From IMG/VR virus record IMGVR_UViG_3300032245_000124, positions 1 to 38,323 of that record: DNA of 38,323 nt, one strand, 5' to 3'. The position numbers were made by a program, and so were the translations under genes. The notes below the pieces were generated by a model. That model ran no database searches. It was not told where the DNA came from and was given only the letters and a program-made list of their open reading frames with translations. This document shows positions 23,861 to 38,323 of the stretch, piece after piece; the stretch's first letter is position 1, and each line of letters starts with the position of its first letter. Source of the stretch: a virus.

Positions 23861-24382
23861 TCACCAGCCCGGACAATTCCACCGCTTCATCGATGCTCTT
23901 GCCCTGCTGCCGCGATCACTTTTACGAGCGACTGGCTCCATTCTCGCGCAGAAGGAATCTCTGCGAGGACCGCCTTGCGGTTGTGGAGCCTTCAAGTTAC
24001 TTCCAGTCTCACGATTATACTTCTCGCGGCCTTTAGCCGTAAGGCCAGCGCCACGTTCTACCGGCATCTTTTCGCCGCGACCGACAGCCAAGCTCGGACC
24101 ACCATCTTTCATCTTGGCTGTTTTTGCTGCCTGCCGAAAATCTTTAGCAGATGGCGCACCTTCGCTACCAACTTTGCGCATCTTTTCGCCAGAACCGCTT
24201 GCGATTCTTTCGCGCTTTTTATGGATGTTTTCGTAAAGACCGCCACCCTTAAAATTCTTTTTCTCATCAGCTTTGGCAAACTCTTTGCCGACCTTTTGAG
24301 AGATGCCTACCTTCTTGGCAAACTCAGGGTTGTGCGCGACCGCTTCCATCAATCGATGCTGGGAAAGTGATTTGCTTGGCAT
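23861..24382 (-). CDS. DUF6321-type small virion-associated protein (composite)
   Basis: 173 aa, strongly basic. Three blocks can be seen: ~8-40 (HRLMEAVAHNPEFAKKVG), ~45-90 (GLYENIHKKRERIASGSGEK, then MRKVGSEGAPSAKDFRQAA) and ~110-173 (GLTAKGREKYNRETGSNLKA, then PQGGPRRDSFCARM and MKRWNCPGW). The last block matches DUF6321. As far as I recall the three blocks are often separate small proteins in other phages, so this looks like a fusion. It may bind DNA or nucleotides. No clear Shine-Dalgarno is seen; the start lies 2 nt after the preceding stop. Confidence 0.7.
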   Translation of the reverse strand: MPSKSLSQHRLMEAVAHNPEFAKKVGISQKVGKEFAKADEKKNFKGGGLYENIHKKRERIASGSGEKMRKVGSEGAPSAKDFRQAAKTAKMKDGGPSLAVGRGEKMPVERGAGLTAKGREKYNRETGSNLKAPQPQGGPRRDSFCARMEPVARKSDRGSRARASMKRWNCPGW

Positions 24383-25198: not shown

Positions 25199-25984
25199 TT
25201 AAACGCAACCGCCTTTTTTCCGCAGCCGGATGTTCTTCTGGAAGTTCTCTGCGCCCTTCTTCTCCATACGGAGAGGACGGTCGTAAGCATCCTCCAGCTT
25301 CTTCATCTCTTCTGCAGTAGGGGTAGATACCGATGCCTCTTTGCGCTCTACAGCCGCAGTGCGAGTCACCGGCATGCCACCATCAGCCTTTTTTACTACG
25401 CCACCCTTCTTGAAGGTGCCTGACAGCTTGCTGATACTCACAGGAGGAGTAGGCTTCTTCTTCCCCTGCGGCATCTCGACGGCGCGTCCATCGTCCTGCA
25501 CGGACCCACCGTCAGCAAACTTTTTTACAGCACCACCCTTCTTGAAGCCGCCCTGACCTTTGACAACGCCACCGGTCTTGTAACCACCTTGACCTTTGAC
25601 TACGCCACCGGTCTTCAGGCCCTTGTGGGCCTTCGATGCAGGCTTGTCGGCATGAGCCTTCAGTTCGGCTTTGGTAGCTTCCTTGGCATGCATCGCCTTG
25701 GATTCAACCTCGCCGCCCTTCTTAGCCATCATCGGAGCAGCCATGCCCTTGCGGCCCATCATTGCGCGGCGACGCTCAGCCAACGAAGGCTTTGCGGGAG
25801 CAGCGGCAGCGGGAGCGGGCATGCGCGAACGCATCGCAGGCATCGCGGGCATTGCGGACATATCACCCATCGGACCGCCATCCATCTTTTTGACCGGCTT
25901 GCAGACCGAACCACCTTTTTTGAGCTTCAGAACAACCGAAGGTTCGGTCGTCTGCATTTTCACCATCGGCTTAAATTGGCCCAT
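25199..25984 (-). CDS. KGG-motif repeat protein of unknown function
   Basis: 261 aa, low complexity and strongly basic. Seven copies of K-[KT]-G-G-x-V occur at residues 22-27, 88-93, 124-129, 136-141, 148-153, 192-197 and 256-261, the last being the exact C-terminus (RKKGGCV). Two further DGG motifs (ADGGSV, ADGGMP) follow some copies. A Met/Pro/Ala-rich stretch lies at ~40-87. No enzymatic motif is present. Shine-Dalgarno AGGAG lies about 9 nt before the ATG. The same motif marks domain boundaries of the polyvalent protein and precedes the C-terminal block of the 1318-aa protein, which suggests a shared docking role. It was not assigned to any family I know. Confidence 0.75.
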   Translation of the reverse strand: MGQFKPMVKMQTTEPSVVLKLKKGGSVCKPVKKMDGGPMGDMSAMPAMPAMRSRMPAPAAAAPAKPSLAERRRAMMGRKGMAAPMMAKKGGEVESKAMHAKEATKAELKAHADKPASKAHKGLKTGGVVKGQGGYKTGGVVKGQGGFKKGGAVKKFADGGSVQDDGRAVEMPQGKKKPTPPVSISKLSGTFKKGGVVKKADGGMPVTRTAAVERKEASVSTPTAEEMKKLEDAYDRPLRMEKKGAENFQKNIRLRKKGGCV

Positions 25985-26732: not shown

Positions 26733-27647
26733 TTAGATACCCGGAGTGCCGTAAAGGGCGCGCCAATCGGTGAAGCCAGTGTCGTAACGCTCAGTTGCCT
26801 TGTAACGCATGGAGTCGGTTTCGAAATCACCTTCCATCGTTTTTTCAAGCTTCCGACGCATCATCAGCTTCATACCTTCCGGCGCATCAGTCTGCACCCA
26901 CCATGCGGTAGGCGAAGTCAAACGCGACAGAACAGCAGCGCCCTCATCCAGCAGCCCAATCGACTTGATCGGGTTGATGTCGTTGTTGGCGTTACCGGCG
27001 CGAAGGACGCTCTTCAGCAGAACTTCCGCTTGGAATACATTGCCCGGAGCAACAACCAGTTGCTTCGGCACCAGACGGATTCTCTTGCCGTTGTTGTCCA
27101 CAGCGTTACGGATTTGAATCAGCATCTGCTCCAGCGACGTTTGCGACAGGTTCGCCGCAGTCGCCAGCAGGTTGCTGGCAGTTCCGTTCACAATCGGATG
27201 ACTCACGCTGTTCAACGCAACGCCGTCGCCGCCCGGATAGGCGCTGTTGAAGCCACGGCTGATGACGTTTGCGCACAGCGTCTCTTTTGTCTCAATCAGG
27301 GACTGAGCCAAGTGCTTGGCGTAGACCTGACCGATACGGATGTGATCGCCGTCCTCGACCAGAACTTTGGTCAGCGCGAATGCAAGGCCGTAGACCTTGT
27401 AAACGTAACGCTTCAGGAACAGGACGCCGCCTTGCTGGTAAGTGACCGGGGTGCCGTCCGGGAGTTCCGGAGCAGCGCCAAAGCCATACAGCACCGGCTC
27501 TTCGTGGTAGTTGCGGGGAATGCCGTTCTGCTCGCGGAAAACACGCGACCATTCGTCGGCACGTTGATCGTAAATTCCGTCGAAACACTCGTTGAGGATA
27601 GGCTCAACAATCGAACGGAAGTCTGTGCTGCGCATCGGGGCTGCCAT
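26733..27647 (-). CDS. Major capsid protein
   Basis: 304 aa. The N-terminus STDFRSIVEPILNECFDGIY and DQRADEWSRVFREQNGIPRN, the middle YVYKVYGLAFALTKVLVEDG and GQVYAKHLAQSLIETKETLC, and AWWVQTDAPEGMKLMMRRKL near the end are features of HK97-fold capsid proteins of this phage type (recalled). It has the strongest Shine-Dalgarno in the head module (AAGGAGGG, 6 nt from the ATG), fitting its high demand, and it is followed by the hairpin at 26699-26724. Its place after scaffold and a probable decoration gene supports the call. Confidence 0.85.
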   Translation of the reverse strand: MAAPMRSTDFRSIVEPILNECFDGIYDQRADEWSRVFREQNGIPRNYHEEPVLYGFGAAPELPDGTPVTYQQGGVLFLKRYVYKVYGLAFALTKVLVEDGDHIRIGQVYAKHLAQSLIETKETLCANVISRGFNSAYPGGDGVALNSVSHPIVNGTASNLLATAANLSQTSLEQMLIQIRNAVDNNGKRIRLVPKQLVVAPGNVFQAEVLLKSVLRAGNANNDINPIKSIGLLDEGAAVLSRLTSPTAWWVQTDAPEGMKLMMRRKLEKTMEGDFETDSMRYKATERYDTGFTDWRALYGTPGI

Positions 27648-27660
27648 TTTTTAGCCCTCC

Positions 27661-28233
27661 TTAAATTGCGTTCACAACAGCAGTAAACTGATGCTTACTG
27701 ATTGTTGCGCGAACGATGGTGAAAGCGTCACCCCAAGCATTGTCGGGGTAGGGAGCGATGTCGATGATGCGCATCTGTGCCGTGGCACCAGCACCAGCTA
27801 GGGTCGTGGACAGAGTAGCTTGCGACAGGCCGGTTGTGGTCGATCCTGCGGTCGTGTTTGAAAGATTAGCTTGGTCGCCAATGGAAGTTTGCGCCAGCGA
27901 GCCTTCAGCTTGAATCTCATACACGATGTTGGGATCGCTGTAGAAATACGCCACGCACGAACCGGTCTGGAATGCGGTGCTTGCAGGCCAGTAGTTCGAT
28001 ACACGGCGACGACCGGTAGTGTCAGTCCACTCGACGCCAGCAAAGGCACCAATGAACGAATCACCAGCAGCAGCGACTTCAATTTGACCACTCGTATTAA
28101 ACTTGACGGGTTGCCCCTTCAGAATGTCACTCGCATAGCCACTAAGAATCCCATTAGCAAGCGCCACAGCGCGATCCAGACCGGAAGGGTGGAACGCAGG
28201 ACGCATACCGAAGGGAGTAGAAAGTGTAGGCAT
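27661..28233 (-). CDS. Probable head decoration protein
   Basis: 190 aa with AAGGAG 7 nt before the ATG. It opens TLSTPFGMRPAFHPSGLDRA, followed by LANGILSGYASDILKGQPVK, a sequence pattern common to proteins encoded next to capsid genes. The rest is beta-rich (GAFAGVEWTDTTGRRRVSNY, GSCVAYFYSDPNIVYEIQAE). It precedes the capsid gene and its stop overlaps the capsid Shine-Dalgarno. A capsid-stabilising or decoration role is inferred from position and composition. Confidence 0.65.
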   Translation of the reverse strand: MPTLSTPFGMRPAFHPSGLDRAVALANGILSGYASDILKGQPVKFNTSGQIEVAAAGDSFIGAFAGVEWTDTTGRRRVSNYWPASTAFQTGSCVAYFYSDPNIVYEIQAEGSLAQTSIGDQANLSNTTAGSTTTGLSQATLSTTLAGAGATAQMRIIDIAPYPDNAWGDAFTIVRATISKHQFTAVVNAI

Positions 28234-28250
28234 AATTTACTCCTTAATTG

Positions 28251-28790
28251 TTAGCCCTGAAAAATCGGGGCAGGTATCGGTTTGTCAATTTCGCCAAGTC
28301 CTTCGCCTTCTATCGCGCCCAAGCGTTTGCCTGAACTGTCGCGGCCTTGAATCTGCTCAGCTTGAATGCGAAGCTTGTTCGCATCTTCAAGTGGTGCGTG
28401 GTGATGCACTTGCGCCATCACATCCTGATAAACATCCATCGGGAGTTTGTAGAGCAGCATTTCATTGCATGCAACAAAACCCACATGCTCGCCAGCCTTT
28501 ACGCGGAAATTGTCGAACCCGGCCACTTCTTCTGCCTTCACAGGCGTGTATCCGAGACGCATCCGCTTGTCGATGCCGTCATAGCTGTTGGTAGTCGATA
28601 ACCAGCAAAGGTGCCATCCCGGAATCTCCGGAATACTTGGCAGCGCACTTTGTGTCCACTCTTCCTTCCACATCTTGCGACGTTCTTCGGCAGAGACGAA
28701 CTGATCTTCTGGGGCCGCACGTTCAGCATCTTCCGACGCACGATTGGTTCGGCCACCAGCAGAAAAATCTTTCTTAATTCGGGAATCCAT
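28251..28790 (-). CDS. Conserved head-module protein of unknown function
   Basis: 179 aa with AAAGGAG about 7 nt upstream of the ATG. It has a basic disordered start, then WKEEWTQSALPSIPEIPGWH, followed by LCWLSTTNSYDGIDKRMRLG, and a domain with GEHVGFVACNEMLLYKLPMD. The central block is shared with proteins found between scaffold and capsid genes of related phages (recalled). No catalytic motif is evident. It may assist capsid assembly or form part of the connector. Confidence 0.6.
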   Translation of the reverse strand: MDSRIKKDFSAGGRTNRASEDAERAAPEDQFVSAEERRKMWKEEWTQSALPSIPEIPGWHLCWLSTTNSYDGIDKRMRLGYTPVKAEEVAGFDNFRVKAGEHVGFVACNEMLLYKLPMDVYQDVMAQVHHHAPLEDANKLRIQAEQIQGRDSSGKRLGAIEGEGLGEIDKPIPAPIFQG

Positions 28791-28793
28791 GTT

Positions 28794-29870
28794 TTAGCTC
28801 CTTTGAGTGTTGTTTTTTGCTTCGTTCATGTAGCGACGGACCATACGTTCACGCGCCTTTGTGTCATCCCACATTCCGGCGTCTTTAATCGCCTTCACAT
28901 GCTCGGCAGAAAGAATGAATCGATTCTTCTTCCCGCTCGATGACGAACTTTCGCGTCCTGATCCCGTAACAACACTCCTCGGTCTGCTTTGCCGCGCACC
29001 TTCTGTGCGCCGATGAGAATTCCCATCCTCGCCCTCAGTATAGTGGTGCGGCAATCGTTTCTGCAAGCGTGAATCAAGCTCTTCCCAATACTCAGGAGTT
29101 TTGGGGTCCCAGCCCTCTTTTGCCATGCGACGATCAACCGCCAAAGCGATTGCGGAATCCTCGTCACTCTCGGCTGGGTCATACCACGGATTGCGCTCCA
29201 TCCACGACGCAGCAAGTCGTTGCAGCGTCTTGTCCGGACCGGCAGACGCCGCCCTCGGATTGGATGTAGCAGCTTGCCTCTTCAGATTGGTCAATGCCTC
29301 ATGAGCGCGACGGGCCTCATACAGCAGGTCCTGCGCATCAGTCATGGCGTCGCCGTCCTGATTCTTCGTGGCATCGGCAATCTTCATCTTGGCGTAGTTG
29401 ATGCGGACCTCTTGGTCCTCGATTGCCTTATCAATCCGCCCAAGCTCAGCGCCGTGTGTGCGCTGCTCTACAGACTGAAGTCGCTGAGACAGTTCTTGGT
29501 TCTGCTTCAGCAACTGATTGAATTTTAAGTCTTTTTCTTTCTGCTGCTGACGCTGGAACTGCTTTTTCGCCCGACGCCGGTCGCGCTTCGCTTGGCGGAT
29601 CGCTTCGGTGTCGTCTTCGTGGTCGTCGTCTTCCGCCGCGACTGACGATTCTGAATCGCCTGCTCCGGCATCGTCACCAGACCCGTCACCGTCATTGGCA
29701 GAGGTGTCGCCAGCTTGACTATCGCCTGCTTTATCGCTTGCCAGATTTTCATCGTTGCTCTCCTGTGAGCCTTCAACACCATCAACTACGATGCTGCCGT
29801 CAGCCTCCTCGATAATGCTCAGAGGGGCGGCAGTTTCTTCCTGTGCCGCAGCCTTGTCTGTTGCGTTCAT
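28794..29870 (-). CDS. Scaffolding protein
   Basis: 358 aa with AAGGAG 5-6 nt before the ATG. The N-terminal ~90 residues are very acidic and disordered (Asp/Glu/Ser/Gly). A basic turn (AKRDRRRAKKQFQRQQQKEK) is followed by a long coiled coil (LLKQNQELSQRLQSVEQR, RIDKAIEDQEVRINYAKMKI). The C-terminus is basic and Ser-rich and ends in a helix. This composition and the position just before the capsid genes are typical of podoviral scaffolding proteins. It should direct capsid assembly and then leave the head. Confidence 0.8.
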   Translation of the reverse strand: MNATDKAAAQEETAAPLSIIEEADGSIVVDGVEGSQESNDENLASDKAGDSQAGDTSANDGDGSGDDAGAGDSESSVAAEDDDHEDDTEAIRQAKRDRRRAKKQFQRQQQKEKDLKFNQLLKQNQELSQRLQSVEQRTHGAELGRIDKAIEDQEVRINYAKMKIADATKNQDGDAMTDAQDLLYEARRAHEALTNLKRQAATSNPRAASAGPDKTLQRLAASWMERNPWYDPAESDEDSAIALAVDRRMAKEGWDPKTPEYWEELDSRLQKRLPHHYTEGEDGNSHRRTEGARQSRPRSVVTGSGRESSSSSGKKNRFILSAEHVKAIKDAGMWDDTKARERMVRRYMNEAKNNTQRS

Positions 29871-29879
29871 GTCGTCTCC

Positions 29880-30320
29880 TTAGATGAAAGCTTTGATTGC
29901 CATCGGATCGCCAGTGAGCTTTCCGATAATTTCATGATCATTCAGAACCATGAAAAGTGCTGGGTCTTCAAAGTCGTCATCGCCGGGGACGCGAACTTCC
30001 CAACGATCACCGCCCCACTTTGGGACGCGAATGAAGTCACCCACTTCACACCATGATCCCTCAGGCCATGACTCCATCGTGTCGCGCTTCTTGAATGCCA
30101 GCGGACCGATGTCAATGACCTTTGCAACCATGTTGTTCCACTTCTCAGTCTCCTTCGTCTCTTCGACAAGGATGATTCCTGCAGATGTTGCTTTCTTCTT
30201 CGTGCGACGAAGCTGCACAAGAATTCTTGCGCCTAGCGGTTTAACTCCGGGATCAACGCTCGGAAATGCCCAAGCAATCTCAGCCGCGTTACCGGCTACC
30301 GGTTTACAGTTGTCGTTCAT
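29880..30320 (-). CDS. GroES-like co-chaperonin
   Basis: 146 aa from the second of two adjacent ATGs, which has AAGGAAG at better spacing. The Cpn10 domain begins VKPLGARILVQLRRTKKK. The mobile loop contains TSAGIILVEETKE, where IIL stands in for the GroEL-binding IVL tripeptide, and AKVIDIGPLAFKK and GDFIRVPKWGGDRWEV complete the barrel. It probably replaces host GroES on host GroEL for folding the capsid protein. No GroEL is in the window. It overlaps the preceding small gene by 17 bp. Confidence 0.85.
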   Translation of the reverse strand: MNDNCKPVAGNAAEIAWAFPSVDPGVKPLGARILVQLRRTKKKATSAGIILVEETKETEKWNNMVAKVIDIGPLAFKKRDTMESWPEGSWCEVGDFIRVPKWGGDRWEVRVPGDDDFEDPALFMVLNDHEIIGKLTGDPMAIKAFI

Positions 30321-30492
30321 CATCTTCCTTCAATAAGTTATTCAGGATATTCAGAGCCTTTTCAAGCCCTTGATGTTCGTAGACCAGCTTCAGGTAAGCC
30401 TCGTAATTCGCTGCATTTCCAGCAACCAAGGATGCGGCTATTTCAGCCTGCCTTACTTTGACTTTGCCTACGAAGTCTTCGACGTATCGCAT
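30304..30492 (-). CDS. Small helical head-module protein
   Basis: 62 aa with AAGGA about 8 nt before the ATG. It is predicted all-helical (KVKVRQAEIAASLVAGNAAN, YEAYLKLVYEHQGLEKALNI) with an acidic tail. Small proteins of this kind are frequent next to portal and GroES genes (recalled). It overlaps the start of the GroES-like gene, so coupling is likely. The role is unknown. Confidence 0.65.
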   Translation of the reverse strand: MRYVEDFVGKVKVRQAEIAASLVAGNAANYEAYLKLVYEHQGLEKALNILNNLLKEDDERQL

Positions 30493-30504
30493 GATTTTTC
30501 CTTT

Positions 30505-30765
30505 TTAGACTTCCCTCCAGTCTTCTGACATCAGATCGGTTTGGCTTGCGAGCCAAGGAACAATCATTCCGTCAGCAGTTCGCATATCAATATGCGCATG
30601 GTAGTTGACGACAGTGCCTTCAGGATAAATACCCAAAAGCGGTGGACGGTTCACAGTGAAGGTAGAGCCGGGGACAAGGAACAAAAACATTCCCTTTCCG
30701 TTCCAGCCCTCTCTGCAAACCTTTTTGCCCTCTTTGATAAGGGCAAGCGCATGTCCGAAGTCCAT
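30505..30765 (-). CDS. tad2: DUF2829 / Tad2-like anti-Thoeris protein
   Basis: 86 aa, the usual length of the family. Signature blocks are DFGHALALIKEGKKVCREGW, NGKGMFLFLVPGSTF, NRPPLLGIYPEGT and HIDMRTADGMIVPW, then SQTDLMSEDW. DUF2829 members include Tad2, which sequesters the cyclic-ADP-ribose-type signal of Thoeris immunity. The ATG lies 3 nt after the preceding stop (TGACCGATG) without a clear Shine-Dalgarno, so it is probably translated by coupling. The family call is strong; the anti-defence function of this copy is inferred. Residues that bind the signal cannot be judged here. Confidence 0.85.
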   Translation of the reverse strand: MDFGHALALIKEGKKVCREGWNGKGMFLFLVPGSTFTVNRPPLLGIYPEGTVVNYHAHIDMRTADGMIVPWLASQTDLMSEDWREV

Positions 30766-30768
30766 CGG

Positions 30769-30906
30769 TCAGGCGTTTTTCTTGTCAACACCCTTGCCCG
30801 AAGGAATCTCAGGCTGGGGAATCGACTTACCATCAGTTGCACCTTGCGCCAGCCGCTTGTGTTGCGGAATGGCTGCGCTTTGCTGCTCTTTGTCACCGGT
30901 TGCCAT
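30769..30906 (-). CDS. Very small hydrophilic protein
   Basis: A 45-codon frame with an excellent Shine-Dalgarno (AAGGAGG 5 nt before the ATG) that overlaps the portal stop codon. The product is hydrophilic and Lys/Gln/Gly/Pro-rich (ATGDKEQQSAAIPQHKRLAQ and a tail ending GVDKKNA) and likely disordered. It fills the gap between portal and the Tad2-like gene and would couple the latter's translation. No family is recognised. Confidence 0.65.
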   Translation of the reverse strand: MATGDKEQQSAAIPQHKRLAQGATDGKSIPQPEIPSGKGVDKKNA

Positions 30907-30915
30907 ATGGCCTCC

Positions 30916-33417
30916 TTATTGAGTCAAACCACGTTGCACTGCGTTTTGCAGGGCCACAACAGACTCTCCCTGCTCCTTTTTCAGTCTTGCCGCCTCAAGC
31001 GTCAATCCCAAAGTTTCCATGCGTTCTTTCGTGAGATTGTTTTCAGTGTTCATTGCCACATCAATCTCTTGGCCTCTCGACTTCAGCGCATTATCGCTCT
31101 GATCTTTCTGAGCGCGAAGGCCCAATTCAGCTTGATCACGCTTAGCCCTGCGCTCAGTCTCGGCCATCGAAGCCTTCAGGACGGCATGCGCATCCGGCGT
31201 CAGTTGCGGCTCCGGCTTCAGTTGCTGAACGATCTGCATCAGTTGCTGCAAGATCGGCATGAACGCCTGCATGTCTTCATTGGCGTCGATGTTCACATGA
31301 TCCGCAGCAATCGCCATCGCCTTGTCAATCTCCGGCACAAGCTTGCTCTCAGCGTATTTCTTGTCGCTGATCCCAGCGGGGACCGTGACGTAGCTGTTCA
31401 TCTTCTGCGTATACCAGAGCATCATGTGCTGCTTCACATGCTCAAGGACCTTCGGCACAAAGGCCGGCGCGATGATCGGATTAGAGCCAAACATCGGATT
31501 CTGCGCGAAGGACAGGTGAGCGGCGATGTGCGCAAGATGATCCTGACGCGGGTAGGCCACAGCAATCCTGCCCATAGCCATCGCAGAATTCTCATCAGCA
31601 GCATGCATCTCAATCGGCTTGCTGTATTCCGGCATCAGTTCCTGAATGTTCGGGATTTTCATCTGACGCAAGGCTCTGGCAATCGCAGCCCGCTTACTCA
31701 TGACGTCCGGATTCTTCTCAGCCAGCGCAAGCACAGCCTGCGTCTGGGCCATCCGTTGCGTCTCGCTGAAGATGTGCGGGTCAGATACCGGCAGGATGTC
31801 CGTGTTGCGCTTGAAGTCATCCTTGCTGATCGGCAGATCAATCACAACGTCGCCGCGCTTCTGCTCATCCAGATACCAGCGGTTGATACGCTGCAGGATC
31901 ATCAGTAGGCGGCGCTGCGAGTTATGCATGCGGGCATGGATGCTGGAGAATACAGCCGCACCCTGCTCGATTAGAGCCTGCGTCGTGCCTACCGGCGCAT
32001 TGCTGTTGATGTCGGCAATCTTCTCTTCCGCCGTGGTCACAACACCTTTGGCCGCACTCGACAGCCAGCCAAGCAGTTGGAACAGCACAGGGCTTGGCGC
32101 ATTGAACGGGAACGGCATCGCAATCTTGCGGATGTCGTCTACTCCCGGAGCGCCCTCAATCTCCGCGACCTGAGTGACTTCGACCTGCTGGGACTGTCCG
32201 GAGATTTTGGCTCCCTTGAGCTTGAGCATAGTGGCCGCATTGTTAATGTGCGCACTATCAAGCAAAGCACGAAGAGCGCCAGTAAGAGCAGCAGACATAC
32301 CACCAATAAGGTGGGGCAGGCCAATCGCATACGCACCTCGCCACGGAATGAATTTATACTCTACGATCCAGTCCATCTTCTGCATCGTCGTATCTTCTTC
32401 CTCCCAATTGCGATACAGGCCAAGAGTGCTGTTGTCGGCCTCATCAAGCATCAGGATATATGGAGCGGACTCACCCTTCGTCTTCGGGTCATCCTCAAGC
32501 TCCAGCCATGTGTAGATGTGATACACGCGACGCGGCACATCGTCGGCGTCTTGGAACTTCTTGCCTTCAATCTTCTCGTTCGCCTTGGCTGCTGCAGTCT
32601 GCTCCGGCTCCATCGTTGACTTGATGTAGCTGGAGTCGATATACAGGCCACGCGACACACGGTTCTTGAACTCCCACTCCGAGATGTCCTGCTGCTCGGT
32701 CACGCGCTGGGCTGTGTAGAAGTTCGCCGCCGTATAGGGCAGCAGAATGTTGTCAATCGGAATGAACTCAGCGACCGGACGCTTCTTCTGGTCGTCCCAA
32801 TAAAGCTTCAGGAACTGACTGCCACCCAGCGGCAACTGCGTCAGCAACTGCTCCTGCTCGTCACGGAACTCCTCGATCTGGTCGGTCAACTGCCAGTTCA
32901 TGTAGTCGCGCTTGCGGCTGGCAATCTCTTCCTTCTCGTCGTTAGTCTCACCGACGATGTTGATCCTTGTCGGACCCTCAGGCGGGAACATCTCCTTCGA
33001 GGCGCGGGCAGCGAAGTCGATGCAAGCCTCGGCCATGATCGGATGCACAACCTTCGAAGCGCCGGAGAATGAAGCGCCACCGGGGGCATCATTACCCATA
33101 CCCGTCCGACGCAAGCCTTCCTCGTATTTCTTGTCGCGCTCTTCCCTTGCGTCGCGGTCCTTGTCGATCAGGTCGAAGTAGCGGATGGCGATCTTGTCCA
33201 GATCGAATGCGTCAACCTTCTCAGCCAGATTGCCATAGAAGTCATCGTCATCCTCGGCCTCATCCTCACCTACCGTGACGACTACAGAGCCATCAGCAAG
33301 CTCCTCAAGCTCTTGCTCACCATCCTCGACCTCGACCTCGACGTCAATGTCATCAGGCAAGTCGCTTATCCCTTCGATGAACCGGTTAAATTCAGGATCA
33401 ATTGGCATCTCAGCCAT
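30916..33417 (-). CDS. Portal protein
   Basis: 833 aa. The ATG at 33417 has AGGAA about 8 nt upstream and lies within the last codons of the polyvalent gene. After an acidic N-terminus (~1-75), ASFSGASKVVHPIMAEACID followed by FAARASKEMFPPEGP is a hallmark of portals in this phage group, and QFLKLYWDDQKKRPVAEFIP belongs to the wing/stem region. The C-terminal ~150 residues are helical and Gln/Lys-rich (barrel or crown). It should form the dodecameric DNA entry ring that also nucleates capsid assembly. The long C-terminal helical part is typical of podoviral portals. Confidence 0.85.
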   Translation of the reverse strand: MAEMPIDPEFNRFIEGISDLPDDIDVEVEVEDGEQELEELADGSVVVTVGEDEAEDDDDFYGNLAEKVDAFDLDKIAIRYFDLIDKDRDAREERDKKYEEGLRRTGMGNDAPGGASFSGASKVVHPIMAEACIDFAARASKEMFPPEGPTRINIVGETNDEKEEIASRKRDYMNWQLTDQIEEFRDEQEQLLTQLPLGGSQFLKLYWDDQKKRPVAEFIPIDNILLPYTAANFYTAQRVTEQQDISEWEFKNRVSRGLYIDSSYIKSTMEPEQTAAAKANEKIEGKKFQDADDVPRRVYHIYTWLELEDDPKTKGESAPYILMLDEADNSTLGLYRNWEEEDTTMQKMDWIVEYKFIPWRGAYAIGLPHLIGGMSAALTGALRALLDSAHINNAATMLKLKGAKISGQSQQVEVTQVAEIEGAPGVDDIRKIAMPFPFNAPSPVLFQLLGWLSSAAKGVVTTAEEKIADINSNAPVGTTQALIEQGAAVFSSIHARMHNSQRRLLMILQRINRWYLDEQKRGDVVIDLPISKDDFKRNTDILPVSDPHIFSETQRMAQTQAVLALAEKNPDVMSKRAAIARALRQMKIPNIQELMPEYSKPIEMHAADENSAMAMGRIAVAYPRQDHLAHIAAHLSFAQNPMFGSNPIIAPAFVPKVLEHVKQHMMLWYTQKMNSYVTVPAGISDKKYAESKLVPEIDKAMAIAADHVNIDANEDMQAFMPILQQLMQIVQQLKPEPQLTPDAHAVLKASMAETERRAKRDQAELGLRAQKDQSDNALKSRGQEIDVAMNTENNLTKERMETLGLTLEAARLKKEQGESVVALQNAVQRGLTQ

Positions 33418-36400
33418 ATTTGCGCTTCCTCTGTTTATTCAGTGTGGCAAGACGCATGGCGTCCAGTGATGGAGCGGATTTTACTCTTCCGCCATTTTTC
33501 ATGTTGTTTGGATCACCATATTGCTTCAGCAGGTTCGTCAATTCGTCTTGCGTTACATAATTCTGCGCTTCCGCTCCAGCCGCTTTTATTTTTGCGGCCA
33601 GATCACTTTCTGTATCAATTCTCACCAATCCGGTATTTTGAAAATCACCAACATCACTCCATTGACCGCCTCTAACAAAATCCTGAACGAACGGCAGGTA
33701 TTTGTCGGCAGGTTTTTTGTTTCCTTTGCCTTTAATTTGATGGATGCTAGAAGGCAAATATTTTTGTAATTGCGACAGTACATGATTTAATGCAACGTCC
33801 CTATCTGCATCTGGATTATCAATTATATAATCCATAAGTTTATTATTAATTTTGTCTTTGTATTTGTATTGCAATTCTTCAGAAACATCCTGCGGAGGTT
33901 TTACCTCAATCGTCACATGCGGCTGGCCTTTAGAATCACGAAGGCTGTAGATTCTGCTGCTGCCTTCCTCAACATCAGGGCAGTAACCACCAACACAGTG
34001 GCCCATCTGTTCGCCTTCGTATTTCAGAGCATCTTCAAGCGCCCTACTTGGATTACCAGAAGTCTCAGGGTGTCGAGTGTAGATATTCTTTATAAGACTT
34101 GGCAGGTCAGCACCAAGAACGACATCACCATCCGGCGATACGGTTCTCAGCGAATTGCCCTTCATTACAGGCTCAGACCATCCTTTAGGAATTCCAGTGG
34201 GCATATCCGGTGTCTTCAGTTCTGCCCACCGATAACCTTCGGGATATTCCTTGAACGTAACGGTCGCTGGATTGTTCGCCCTAACAAGATCAGCCTCAGC
34301 CTTCTGTGCAGCCCTCCATTCATTGATCTTTGCCACTCGCTCAACAGCCTGCTGGACTGACAGCCTATCCAAAGATTCCGGCCTCAACTGAAGCTCTTTT
34401 GGCAAGCCTGATCGCGGGTTAATGGCGTTTTTAAGCTCATCAACCAAGTGGTCAAAGTGAACATCCCTTGGCAAACCTGTAGCGTAGTAGACCTCGGCTT
34501 CAGGATCGACTTTCTTCAGCCAAGGGTTTTGGGCGACGATATCTTCATCAAGGGAGCCGTGGACATAAGAGCCTGCCGATGCAGGCTTGATCGACCTATC
34601 GGTGATGTCTTCCCAATTCTTTGCGGCCTCGCTTTGCCCCATTCCCTTTGCTGGCATTCCAGCACCAACTCTCTTCGCCATAAGCTTCGATGCGTCGGAA
34701 GCTTGAAAAATCGACAGAAGCGGATCATCCGGATCATTAACCGCAGTGGGATTGAAGTGGATATTACCCTTCTCAGCCAAAGCTCTGATAGGGTCCTCAG
34801 GAGTTCCCATATCGTTTTTGATGTATCGCGTTAGCTGCTTATCAATCCAGTTATTCAACGCGCTGACTTCGTTCTCGTTAGTCCTTCCGCCACCAAAGTT
34901 TATGGCGCTGAATCGTTTAAGCTCTTTCAATCTGTCTTCAATGCCACCAGCCAGCCAGTTACCACCCTTCGGCTTTATGACATGAGAGGCAGTCGCCTGC
35001 GGGCCATAAGCAGCGGTCGCTGCCTTCATTACATCAGTCGGCAAATGCTTGATGGCGTTAGAAACTCGACTAGCAACAGGAGCAGCAAACGACGCAACAT
35101 CAACAGCCCTCGGATCGATGCTTGTTGTCATTCCGCTACCAGATAATAGCCTGCGATACGGATAGTCTTCCGTCGCATCTCTGGGTGTTCCGGTGTAGTC
35201 CTGAAGTGCAGTCCCAGCAGATTTCAGAGGCTCAGACACAACCATGTTCATCAGGAATGACTTGATAGGACTGTTGCCTTCCTGACCGACAATTTTCATT
35301 GCCTCCTCAAGCTTAATACCAAGCCTTTCAGCGGTCTGACCTAACCTGCCCAAGAATTCTTGTCCGGGCTTTGATGGTGAAGCTTTAATTGATCCGCCTT
35401 CTGCTATGCGCTTGACCTGACCGCCTTTTTTGTATCCGGCATCCTCAAGTCGCTGCAAAGTCTCCCTATCAATTTCTTGGGTAACTTTGTTTCTATCCCA
35501 ATCCATCACTCCGGGCTTTCTGCCCTTTGCTTTCTCAATGCGACTTACAAAGTCATGCATCAAAAGTTCTCTAGGAGTCATCTCGTAATGAACTCCAACA
35601 TCCGCGCCATGAATCATTTCCGGAAATGCACGATGCAAGTCAGGGCGGAATGAAGTATCGCCTGATATTTGGAATGCTCTTGGACCAACCGATCCAGTTG
35701 GTGCGTCAGCAAGCATAGGCTCAGTTGATTTAGAGATTATTTTGTCGTAATCAATAATCCGCCCCTTCTTCCCTCCAACACCTTCGCCACCCAAAACTTC
35801 AGCGATAGCGGCCCTTCTTGTAAATGTATTGCCCTCATTAAATAGATTCGATGTCGATACATCAAAGCCTTCATCAAACAAAGGCCGTCCAGCCTCATCC
35901 ATGTAAAACTTTTGGTTTGTCAGTCGCTCATTGTATGCATCACGCAACTCAGGAGTCAGCCTACCCTCTTTTACAGCCCTATTGAATGCCTTGCGTATGT
36001 CGTCGTAAACAACTTGATTGGATCGGTGCATTTGCGCAGAACCAATCTGAGGAGTGAATATCACGCCCGGAAACTCTTTCTGCAAATTGACCATCTTCGA
36101 AGCTGCTGCCTTACCTTTATTTGCCCACACGACATTTTCATAAGCTGGGTCAACGGTAGATAACCAAGGGAAAAGCGGGCCACCCTTCTTTGATCCGGGA
36201 CCGGGTATTGCAACCATTCTGTCGGCGGGGGCAGTCAAGGCAACCCTTTCGCCAAGGAACTGCTCAAAAGCCTTTGATGCCTTTTTAGGCTCAGGAAGTA
36301 TCTTGGGTATTGTGCTTCTTACATCCGCCTTATCAGCAGGCTTTAATGCCTTTGCGGCCTTCTTTGCAATCTCGCCAGCAATGCTTCCACCTACCGCAAG

Positions 36401-38323
36401 CCTCATCGCATCTAAAGATACGCGGCCACCTTTAGCCCTGCGCTTGACAATAATGTCTTCGGGCGCAACGTCATAGCCAACATTACCTTCATTATCACCA
36501 AGAGGAAAGTTTTCAAGACGCTGCTCAGGAGTTAGGTCGATACGGTTTTGCGCTGCTCTAGCTTCAGCCTCTCCAGCAAGTCTTTTATAGTAAAGGTTAG
36601 CTGCTTGAGTTTGAAATTCCCTGTCCATCTGCTTTGCCACTTTAGGAATAGCTTTTTTGTATTCCTCGTATATTTTCATTGCATCGCCAAGCGGCAAAGA
36701 TTCAAGGCCAGCACTTTTGACATACTCTTCGTATGGCGTAGGCTCAAGGGCTTGCTTTCTCAGATCATTCAGAATTTCATGAGCCTCTTTGTGCTGGAAG
36801 GCCATCTCCGGATTACCGCCTCGACCAAAATCTTCGATCCCTTGAATGGCGTGCTGCATTTCATGAACAGCACTGGATCGAGGATTATCTCTTAGTCCGA
36901 GATCGTAAACATTAACTAGCCCCGGATCGCTGCCCCCAATTCCCTCTAGGTATGAAGCTTTGGTTGAGCCAGAGCGTCCGCCCTGAAGAACATCCATTCC
37001 AGAAAGGTTCGGATAGGCTTTATAAAGCTCAGGATGCTCAAGGGCAAACTCCGCACGATTCCCCCGCTCGACTCTATATTCAGGTCCACCCTCCATCGTC
37101 CTGCGTTCCTTGATGTCCTTCGCTTGCTGCCGCATATCCTTCTGCGCTGCGGTCAGTTGCTTCGGGAATAGATCAGGGTAAAGCTTGCTCTCAGCAATCC
37201 TTCCCTTGATGTCTACCTCCTGCTGCTTCATCGAATCAGCAAGCTCCCTCATCTCCTTCTCGCCACGGAACTTAGACCCTACGTCAGATATCTCCTGACG
37301 CAACGAACCATCAGGACTACGGAACGTGCCAGTCTGCCTCCAGATATCTGCAGGAGCAACTCCAGCCTTCTCAAGCTGAACAGCCTTTGCCGCAGCAGGC
37401 TCGTCCCATATTTTTGATTTCTCGCCAATAAAGATTTCTGTCTTCTTATTTGGCTCAAAGCCCTTTGCATACTTTGCCAAGCGACGAGCAACACCGCCAC
37501 CAGCCTTGCGGACTGCACCGCCTTTCTTCATCCGCTCCTTGATGGTCAGGATGTCCTCGTTGCCGGGGAAGACTACGAAGTTGCTGGTGCCTTCTCCTGC
37601 ATCGCGGCTTGCTTCATCGAGATACTTGACGCCGGGGACGCCGCGCTCTCTCAGGTATTGGCTGGCCTGCTCTGCGCCGGGATATGCGGCGGTCACATCC
37701 TTCGCCTCATCTGAAGCAGCAATCATCTGATACAAAACACTGCCGGGGGAATCGTATTTCTTAGCAATGGACATATCCTCGGCGGATAGCCTTCCCCTCA
37801 TGATGTCTTGGATTTCTGCGGGCTGCTGGCTGAATGGCTTGTCCCAATCAATCATCTTCGCAACATGCTCGTCGGGAAGGTCTACTTTGTAGATGTGGCC
37901 TTTTAATTCAAGTGGCTTTGCAAAATCTCCGCTTTCTAAAAAAGCCAATGTCTTTTGAAGAAGTTCTTTTTGAGGATGATCTGGCTCGTTTGTTAATACA
38001 AAACGAACGTCATCAGCAGCATATTTTGGATCACCAGCAAGCGACGCTAATCGTTGAGCGTTTGCATGAGCGTTTAGTCTTCCCTGATTGGCAATGTCAC
38101 GGTTAGCAAGATTTTTTGCATAACCCTCTCCCGTTCCTCTAGCTTCAGCCAGATAATGTCCGTGACCATAAGCCTGCGCACCCTCACCAGTTCCAATCTT
38201 TGTCGGATCGAACTCACCCAGCGGATTCTTTTTGGTCGGCGGGAAACGATGCGGGCTTCCATGCCATGCATCCATCGGCAGCGCCATGCCTGTGCGCATC
38301 ATGTATTGCTCGGCAAGCTCTCC
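33410..38323 (-). CDS. Giant polyvalent protein (ART, HExxH, PcfJ-like), 5' partial
   Basis: At least 1630 aa. The frame is open to the window edge (GELAEQY precedes the first Met), so the start is missing. Numbering from the Met at 38302: ~12-250 is an ADP-ribosyltransferase-like domain (AWHGSPH, GTGEGAQAYGHGHYLAE, then GVKYLDEASR and NFVVF). Residues ~270-610 form a domain with DIWRQTGTFRSPDGS and the metal-binding motif HEMQH at 480-484, resembling large-polyvalent-protein domain 23. Residues ~650-950 are unrecognised. Residues ~1410-1580 are PcfJ-like (GHCVGGYCPDVEEGSSRIYS, IKGKGNKKPADKYLPF). Four K-x-G-G-x-V motifs separate these blocks. Polyvalent proteins are thought to be injected with DNA and to act early on the host; that role is inferred here. 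Confidence 0.8.
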   Translation of the reverse strand, partial: GELAEQYMMRTGMALPMDAWHGSPHRFPPTKKNPLGEFDPTKIGTGEGAQAYGHGHYLAEARGTGEGYAKNLANRDIANQGRLNAHANAQRLASLAGDPKYAADDVRFVLTNEPDHPQKELLQKTLAFLESGDFAKPLELKGHIYKVDLPDEHVAKMIDWDKPFSQQPAEIQDIMRGRLSAEDMSIAKKYDSPGSVLYQMIAASDEAKDVTAAYPGAEQASQYLRERGVPGVKYLDEASRDAGEGTSNFVVFPGNEDILTIKERMKKGGAVRKAGGGVARRLAKYAKGFEPNKKTEIFIGEKSKIWDEPAAAKAVQLEKAGVAPADIWRQTGTFRSPDGSLRQEISDVGSKFRGEKEMRELADSMKQQEVDIKGRIAESKLYPDLFPKQLTAAQKDMRQQAKDIKERRTMEGGPEYRVERGNRAEFALEHPELYKAYPNLSGMDVLQGGRSGSTKASYLEGIGGSDPGLVNVYDLGLRDNPRSSAVHEMQHAIQGIEDFGRGGNPEMAFQHKEAHEILNDLRKQALEPTPYEEYVKSAGLESLPLGDAMKIYEEYKKAIPKVAKQMDREFQTQAANLYYKRLAGEAEARAAQNRIDLTPEQRLENFPLGDNEGNVGYDVAPEDIIVKRRAKGGRVSLDAMRLAVGGSIAGEIAKKAAKALKPADKADVRSTIPKILPEPKKASKAFEQFLGERVALTAPADRMVAIPGPGSKKGGPLFPWLSTVDPAYENVVWANKGKAAASKMVNLQKEFPGVIFTPQIGSAQMHRSNQVVYDDIRKAFNRAVKEGRLTPELRDAYNERLTNQKFYMDEAGRPLFDEGFDVSTSNLFNEGNTFTRRAAIAEVLGGEGVGGKKGRIIDYDKIISKSTEPMLADAPTGSVGPRAFQISGDTSFRPDLHRAFPEMIHGADVGVHYEMTPRELLMHDFVSRIEKAKGRKPGVMDWDRNKVTQEIDRETLQRLEDAGYKKGGQVKRIAEGGSIKASPSKPGQEFLGRLGQTAERLGIKLEEAMKIVGQEGNSPIKSFLMNMVVSEPLKSAGTALQDYTGTPRDATEDYPYRRLLSGSGMTTSIDPRAVDVASFAAPVASRVSNAIKHLPTDVMKAATAAYGPQATASHVIKPKGGNWLAGGIEDRLKELKRFSAINFGGGRTNENEVSALNNWIDKQLTRYIKNDMGTPEDPIRALAEKGNIHFNPTAVNDPDDPLLSIFQASDASKLMAKRVGAGMPAKGMGQSEAAKNWEDITDRSIKPASAGSYVHGSLDEDIVAQNPWLKKVDPEAEVYYATGLPRDVHFDHLVDELKNAINPRSGLPKELQLRPESLDRLSVQQAVERVAKINEWRAAQKAEADLVRANNPATVTFKEYPEGYRWAELKTPDMPTGIPKGWSEPVMKGNSLRTVSPDGDVVLGADLPSLIKNIYTRHPETSGNPSRALEDALKYEGEQMGHCVGGYCPDVEEGSSRIYSLRDSKGQPHVTIEVKPPQDVSEELQYKYKDKINNKLMDYIIDNPDADRDVALNHVLSQLQKYLPSSIHQIKGKGNKKPADKYLPFVQDFVRGGQWSDVGDFQNTGLVRIDTESDLAAKIKAAGAEAQNYVTQDELTNLLKQYGDPNNMKNGGRVKSAPSLDAMRLATLNKQRKRKYG

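Follow-up and report, generated by a model that had tools for sequence, protein, structure and literature searches.

A predicted Tad2-type sponge gene as apparently recurrent accessory cargo of a phage head gene cluster

The head gene cluster of a virus known from IMG/VR record IMGVR_UViG_3300032245_000124 contains a gene for a predicted Tad2-type sponge, which appears to be optional cargo that has entered this kind of cluster more than once. We analysed the complete 38,323-nucleotide stretch of DNA (hereafter the window) together with related records, and propose that the gene is probably an accessory that repeatedly enters the head cluster, where the site would bring a benefit of timing and dose. 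The recurrent placement, and not the protein, is the interesting part.

The tad2-like open reading frame (ORF) occupies exactly positions 30505–30765 on the minus strand and encodes 86 amino acids, bearing out the original prediction of a Tad2-like DUF2829 gene there. The protein matched the PF11195 (Tad2-like) profile over positions 1–73 of 73 (E = 1.8e-25; score 89.7 bits, cut-off 25), the single PF11195 match within the whole 38,323-base virus record, and also matched three PHROG families without known function. Its best sequence matches in the PDB were the ModTad2 entries 8v3e and 9eib (approximately 3.5e-19), with further relatives in HgmTad2/AcrIIA7 (8kbi), SptTad2 (8wjd), SPO1 Tad2 (8sme, 8wje) and AcrIIA7 (9kzr). 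An ORF at 30541–31908 (+) was interpreted as an open frame antisense to portal and tad2 and set aside. Comparison of the window gene with that of locus L002 revealed silent differences and an identical protein (pS 0.09, pN 0), and dN/dS was 0.03 for L035/L041, 0.02 for L030/L032 and 0.17 for L057/L058, pairs more distant than these being near or at saturation; tad2 appears to be under purifying selection.

A predicted monomer model of the protein, obtained with a 43-sequence alignment, had a mean pLDDT of 95.4. Foldseek searches with this model returned Tad2 chains for all 24 matches at E up to 0.001, the next match having an E value of 0.31, and a second structural aligner (VIA) placed ten Tad2 entries at Z 11.2–12.4, with the next entry at 5.0. 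The model also bore a weak likeness to the neck protein of phage 812 (8qkh_S; Z 5.0; 65 residues; Foldseek E 0.8), which was too weak and non-significant to be accepted as kinship. The 43 relatives all share residues F3, R18, G20, W21, G23, W71, D77, D82 and W83; R18, G20, W21 and G23 lie in the beta1-beta2 loop and W71 and D77 in the beta4-alpha3 region, and these six are also found in ModTad2, SPO1 Tad2 and SptTad2. Passages of a review describe the gcADPR pocket of Tad2 as formed by the beta1-beta2 loop, the beta4-alpha3 loop and alpha3 (PMC12043709), and most of the invariant residues fall in these elements, as compared by element and not by contact residue. Loss of ligand-pocket residues, which the original prediction had named as counting against it, was not seen at the level of these elements across the 43 relatives. 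Because profile, predicted fold and invariant residues agree, we placed the window protein with the verified Tad2 sponges, as what appears to be an ordinary, well-supported member of a known family, not unusual in itself.

The cyclic dinucleotides bound by some Tad2 proteins are held, according to the same passages, by a long insertion between beta2 and beta5 (PMC12043709). This long insertion was not found in the window protein by alignment, SptTad2 being approximately 10 residues longer in that loop, and by the insertion criterion the protein stands outside the cyclic-dinucleotide-binding subgroup (HgmTad2, SptTad2). SPO1 Tad2, which is short in the beta2-beta5 loop like the window protein, does not bind 3'3'-cGAMP, as stated in passages of PMC11722364. 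Because the insertion tied to cyclic-dinucleotide binding is absent, an ADP-ribose-type Thoeris signal would be the likeliest ligand. The window protein shares the S-Q-T-D motif with SPO1 Tad2 and SptTad2, whereas ModTad2 has S-V-S-D; since the motif is that of SPO1 and SptTad2, yet ModTad2 is nearest overall, gcADPR-type and His-ADPR-type signals are both possible.

The genes around tad2 run, all on the minus strand, in the order polyvalent, portal, 45-aa ORF, tad2, 62-aa ORF, GroES, scaffold-position gene, two conserved genes and capsid. The polyvalent protein (33410–38302; 1630 aa) has an LPD23 and a PcfJ-like part (PF18838, 7e-7; PF14284, 4.4e-6) and a putative ART-like N terminus. The portal (30916–33417; phrog_1216, 5.7e-18) is 61% identical to the 'head to tail connecting protein' of phage ctpbd312, and the major capsid protein (26733–27647; PF25209, 2.3e-11; PF10124, 2.7e-7) is 87% identical to the annotated capsid protein of the same phage. 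The GroES-like co-chaperonin (Cpn10; 29880–30323) matched PF00166 (8.1e-6) and phrog_3188 (2.5e-10), and the 358-aa scaffold-position protein (28794–29870; phrog_28737, of unknown function, 1.6e-7) is named by position only, its gene having a conserved place before the capsid genes in relatives. The two conserved head-module proteins have no assigned function; the one of 179 aa (28251–28790) is conserved among relatives and the one of 190 aa (27661–28233) matched phrog_37556, also of unknown function (3.9e-15). The original prediction set tad2 between portal and GroES, and it does lie within that gap, but not in direct contact with either gene: it is flanked by the 45-aa ORF (30769–30906), which gave no Pfam match and ends 3 nt ahead of the tad2 start codon, and by the 62-aa ORF (30304–30492), which overlaps the GroES start by 20 nt. 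Related head modules have a homologous small ORF at the place of the former, and homologues of the latter between portal and GroES. Short K-G-G / G-G-x-V motifs, seen by eye, recur in unrelated window proteins (33410–38302, 25199–25984 and 23861–24382) and in the small ORFs at the 45-aa-ORF position of L145 and L176; they may serve these proteins in common for processing or docking.

The stop of the polyvalent gene overlaps the portal start, and the genes then follow with gaps of 9, 3 and 12 nt, a 20-nt overlap and a gap of 9 nt to the scaffold-position gene. Promoter-like matches in 28000–34500 were at chance level (4 found against 4.3 expected) and the DNA immediately before tad2 had none; a promoter of its own was therefore rejected for tad2. 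Because the gene run is tight and promoter-like matches are at chance level, co-transcription of tad2 with the head genes would be the simplest reading, and the gene order points to late timing of its expression.

The polyvalent neighbour had been predicted to carry an ADP-ribosyltransferase-like domain, which would bring two proteins of NAD-derived chemistry close together. No Pfam match to such a domain was found in the window copy (33410–38302); the N termini of relatives match ART-PolyVal (PF18760) at up to 5e-7 and 31.0 bits, just below the cut-off of 31.2. A model of the N terminus (pLDDT 82.6) had ADP-ribosylating proteins as its top fold matches, at a non-significant E of 0.4 or worse. 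The 'ART-like' label is thus plausible by way of the relatives; a functional link to tad2 gained no support and was set aside, since L123 keeps an N-terminal ART-like domain upstream of the portal and has no tad2.

Scanning with an alignment of the lineage capsid yielded at least 80 loci (L102–L181), and 67 of the listed matches show both GroES and capsid; across these 67 the order of portal, small ORFs, GroES and scaffold-position gene is nearly constant. A PF11195 search of whole records was positive for 3 of the 80 listed capsid-selected records, many of which are fragments: L148 and L160, where tad2 lies in the module, and L159, where it lies approximately 20 kb from the capsid gene. Because tad2 occurs in 2 of the 67 listed relatives with GroES and capsid in view (L148, L160), is missing from the same gene order in the cultured Caulobacter phage KcrB (capsid 78% identical) and is represented in the environmental phage ctpbd312 (capsid 87%) by a Tad2-domain gene far from the head module, it appears to be optional accessory cargo of the module and not a head part. 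In L145 a 148-aa ORF, HNH-like by eye (L145:1726-2172), lies between GroES and the scaffold-position gene; the module therefore takes other cargo too.

The place of tad2 within the module differs among the records, with three insertion points in all: in the window and L002 it separates the 45-aa from the 62-aa ORF, in L005, L006, L022, L025, L026, L027, L079, L081 and L148 it follows GroES, and in L160 it follows the portal; a GroES-family gene also precedes tad2 in L078. The capsid gene of the lineage was present in 13 of 80 records selected for tad2, with tad2 in the module in 10 and far away in 3 (L010, L057, L058), a split in which short records favour the in-module class. On a tree of 86 Tad2 proteins, the 13 head-lineage copies need 10 label changes. 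A single clade for the head-lineage copies was rejected (p-AU 0.0016) by an AU test run on the reduced set alone, without the verified Tad2 rows and three other long rows, and the starred branches force 5 changes with the verified Tad2s in and 2 in the reduced set. Because the insertion points differ and the copies do not form one clade, tad2 appears to have been acquired or exchanged repeatedly in this head lineage; the Tad2 trees have few columns and many open forks, so we claim several origins and no number.

Beyond the head lineage, at least 28 of the 80 tad2-selected loci had a head, packaging or connector gene (or a GroES or scaffold-position gene of the lineage module) within two same-strand ORFs on either side, a lower bound, as the PHROG labels come from scans of 30 among the 446 neighbour proteins and were extended to the other members of each protein's cluster, with tad2 as anchor and same-strand ORFs only. 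These loci (L002, L005-L007, L011, L014, L022, L025-L027, L030-L032, L036, L038, L040, L044, L054-L056, L061-L063, L065, L066, L078, L079 and L081) span several unrelated portal or capsid families (phrog_1216-like, 332, 156 with 334, 3437, 12082 and 9953). Among 20 GenBank phages hand-picked for variety from 373 with a match, tad2 lies within two genes of capsid, portal or terminase in 5 and elsewhere or unclear in the other 15. It adjoins the capsid gene in Klebsiella phage NNA-G4, sits between terminase and a DUF1073 gene, which we take to be portal-like, in IME346, follows terminase by two genes in Vibrio phage 1.205.O, precedes the capsid gene by two genes in Vibrio phage 1.127.O and stands just before terminase in Lactobacillus phage Lb.

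Distance to terminase was assessed in 31 of the 80 tad2-selected records (approximately 29–74 kb; 46 shorter ones and 3 over 100 kb were left out), 18 of which yielded a terminase by two profiles, some matches being weak and positions being taken by hand from contig ranges. In 7 of these 18 long records tad2 was within 3 kb of terminase, against 2.15 expected (P 0.003); the radius was not fixed beforehand, and P was 0.051 at 2 kb, 0.015 at 4 kb, 0.094 at 6 kb and 0.133 at 8 kb. The control families (Lar-like, 4 loci; NinX-like, 16; dCMP deaminase, 1) were too few or too uneven to serve as a control. Close Tad2 relatives also neighbour ribonucleotide-reductase, primase, polymerase and lysis genes. 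Enrichment near terminase is therefore modest and radius-dependent, and placement of tad2 beside head genes appears recurrent, perhaps enriched, and not exclusive.

Several of the loci gathered in this survey had further features. NrdA lies just upstream of the tad2-like gene in L012, L048 and L050, with NrdB just downstream in L048 and L050. The order tad2, groES, groEL at L051:8001-10280 is a second Tad2–GroES association, outside the head lineage of the window. A Tad2 domain forms the C terminus of a Phage_gp49_66 fusion in Pasteurella phage Pmp13 (L088:5707-6264) and of a crAss001_48 fusion in Vibrio phage 1.205.O (L096:4217-4729), and several other Tad2 proteins have N-terminal extensions without a Pfam match.

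These data allow us to propose what tad2 might do in a head cluster. The sponge, small and probably tetrameric, would sequester the ADP-ribose-type alarm nucleotide of a TIR-domain (Thoeris-like) defence, so that the defence effector would not be switched on. According to passages of the published work, staphylococcal phages activate Thoeris ThsB1/ThsB2 through their major capsid protein, capsid proteins are recognised by streptococcal Thoeris as well (PMC12578639), and YonE, a portal protein, activates the TIR protein SpbK (PMC12847820); the passages on SpbK give ADPR and N1-cADPR as products and do not mention Tad2. Because capsid (Thoeris) and portal (SpbK) trigger TIR defences, a sponge read out with portal, GroES and capsid would arrive together with the head-protein trigger, as the alarm starts, and match it in time and in dose, a sponge being described as acting by amount (PMC12043709) and having to be there while the signal is produced. 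The late placement, which the original prediction found surprising for an anti-defence gene, becomes less so given TIR defences triggered by capsid or portal (PMC12578639, PMC12847820). The proposal draws on features read from sequence, namely the family, the predicted fold, the kept pocket regions, the tight spacing, the optional presence and what appear to be several origins; from these we infer the ligand, the protection, late expression and selection for the site.

The same sponge might occupy a head site that has no meaning, as mobile cargo that lands in many gaps and is tolerated there, like homing endonucleases. We rate this at somewhat below an even chance. Tad2 relatives adjoin many kinds of gene, the gene is far from capsid in 3 of the 13 tad2 records of the lineage and in 1 of the 3 tad2 finds among the 80 listed capsid-selected records, and the HNH-like ORF (by eye) fills a gap of the L145 module; as no control family was completed, this explanation stays strong. 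It fits less well with the count near terminase, 7 of 18 long records having tad2 no more than 3 kb away where 2.15 would be expected (P 0.003, with weaker values at the other radii), and with the repeated entry of separate origins into one small module. Alternatively, the protein could answer a different signal, such as CBASS cyclic dinucleotides or another nucleotide, or could inhibit Cas9, as the name AcrIIA7 suggests: HgmTad2/AcrIIA7 was deposited with 1',2'-cADPR and cGG (8kbk) and is named as an inhibitor of type II CRISPR-Cas. We consider this unlikely; the beta2-beta5 insertion described as binding cyclic dinucleotides (PMC12043709) is absent, SptTad2 being approximately 10 residues longer there, and SPO1 Tad2, also short in that loop, is without 3'3'-cGAMP binding in the passages of PMC11722364.

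Packaging of the protein in the virion, with action at entry, was put forward by the original prediction and now seems very improbable. Position among head genes is the one point in its favour; tad2 was not found in 65 of the 67 listed related modules, which retain the other head genes in their order, the family also occurs in non-structural clusters, the effect of a sponge depends on how much of it there is, and the triggers described in the literature are late products. The gene is optional in the module, and no sign of packaging emerged from the analysis. We give just as little credence to a head-assembly accessory that keeps the Tad2 fold and has lost nucleotide binding. The position would suit such a role, as would the non-significant likeness to the phage 812 neck protein (Z 5.0; Foldseek E 0.8), but the pocket elements are invariant, and the in-module copies group with copies from other clusters and not together.

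If a sponge that enters head clusters for timing and dose is the right reading, the silencer and the proteins that raise the alarm would share a transcript, and the identity of a head-sited counter-defence gene would predict which kind of defence senses that head. It is possible, though we hold this only tentatively, that the reading of portal and capsid by TIR-type defences is the reason why head clusters take up sponges for the alarm signal again and again. Counter-defence in head operons has a precedent in Pseudomonas phage JBD30 and related phages, whose head region contains anti-CRISPR genes with their own promoter. Counter-defence genes are usually sought in early regions, and the apparent repeated entry into head clusters suggests searching head operons for silencers. 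An oddity of gene order would become a testable rule, and a clean comparison is available in nature, in close relatives that have the same head cluster without tad2.

Phages in culture whose head module is related to that of the window have hosts that include Caulobacter, Roseobacter and Pelagibacter. In Phenylobacterium deserti, a locus (L195) with portal, GroES, tad2 and capsid matches L081, which puts this head module, tad2 included, in the genome of a bacterium, where it is probably a prophage. Among 149 genomes of the P. deserti family, 50 had a PF08937 (ThsB_TIR) match, many of the matches being in long proteins and not necessarily Thoeris, and the genome of P. deserti had none. TIR proteins are thus common in the family, which does not imply a Thoeris pairing with the window phage.

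We found no description of Tad2 in head operons as a pattern in the titles, abstracts and passages of the open-access literature. Two reported phages bear on placement in the passages that describe them. In the lytic Sinorhizobium phage AP-20-A (2026; PMC13299392), Tad2-like P015, likewise of predicted function, is close to portal P020 and tail P018 by gene numbering, and in Delftia phage RG-2014 the DUF2829 protein is gene 64 and a P22-type coat protein is gene 74 (PMC5735904). Among the Tad2 proteins of known structure, HgmTad2/AcrIIA7 (8kbi-8kbm) and SptTad2 (8wjd) share the fold and a W-L-A-S-Q-T-D motif with the window protein and differ in their longer cyclic-dinucleotide insertion, which the window protein lacks. 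ModTad2 from a Myroides odoratus prophage (9eib, 8v3e), which binds His-ADPR, is the best PDB match by sequence and fold (Foldseek 1.1e-9; Z 12.4), with a similar length and a short loop; its genome copy is 42% identical to the window protein, and because it has S-V-S-D where the window protein has S-Q-T-D, His-ADPR specificity is not transferable from one to the other. SPO1 Tad2 (gp34.65; 8sme, 8smf, 8smg), which binds gcADPR, is 40–45% identical to the window protein in structural alignment and resembles it in fold, in the S-Q-T-D motif and in having no long insertion.
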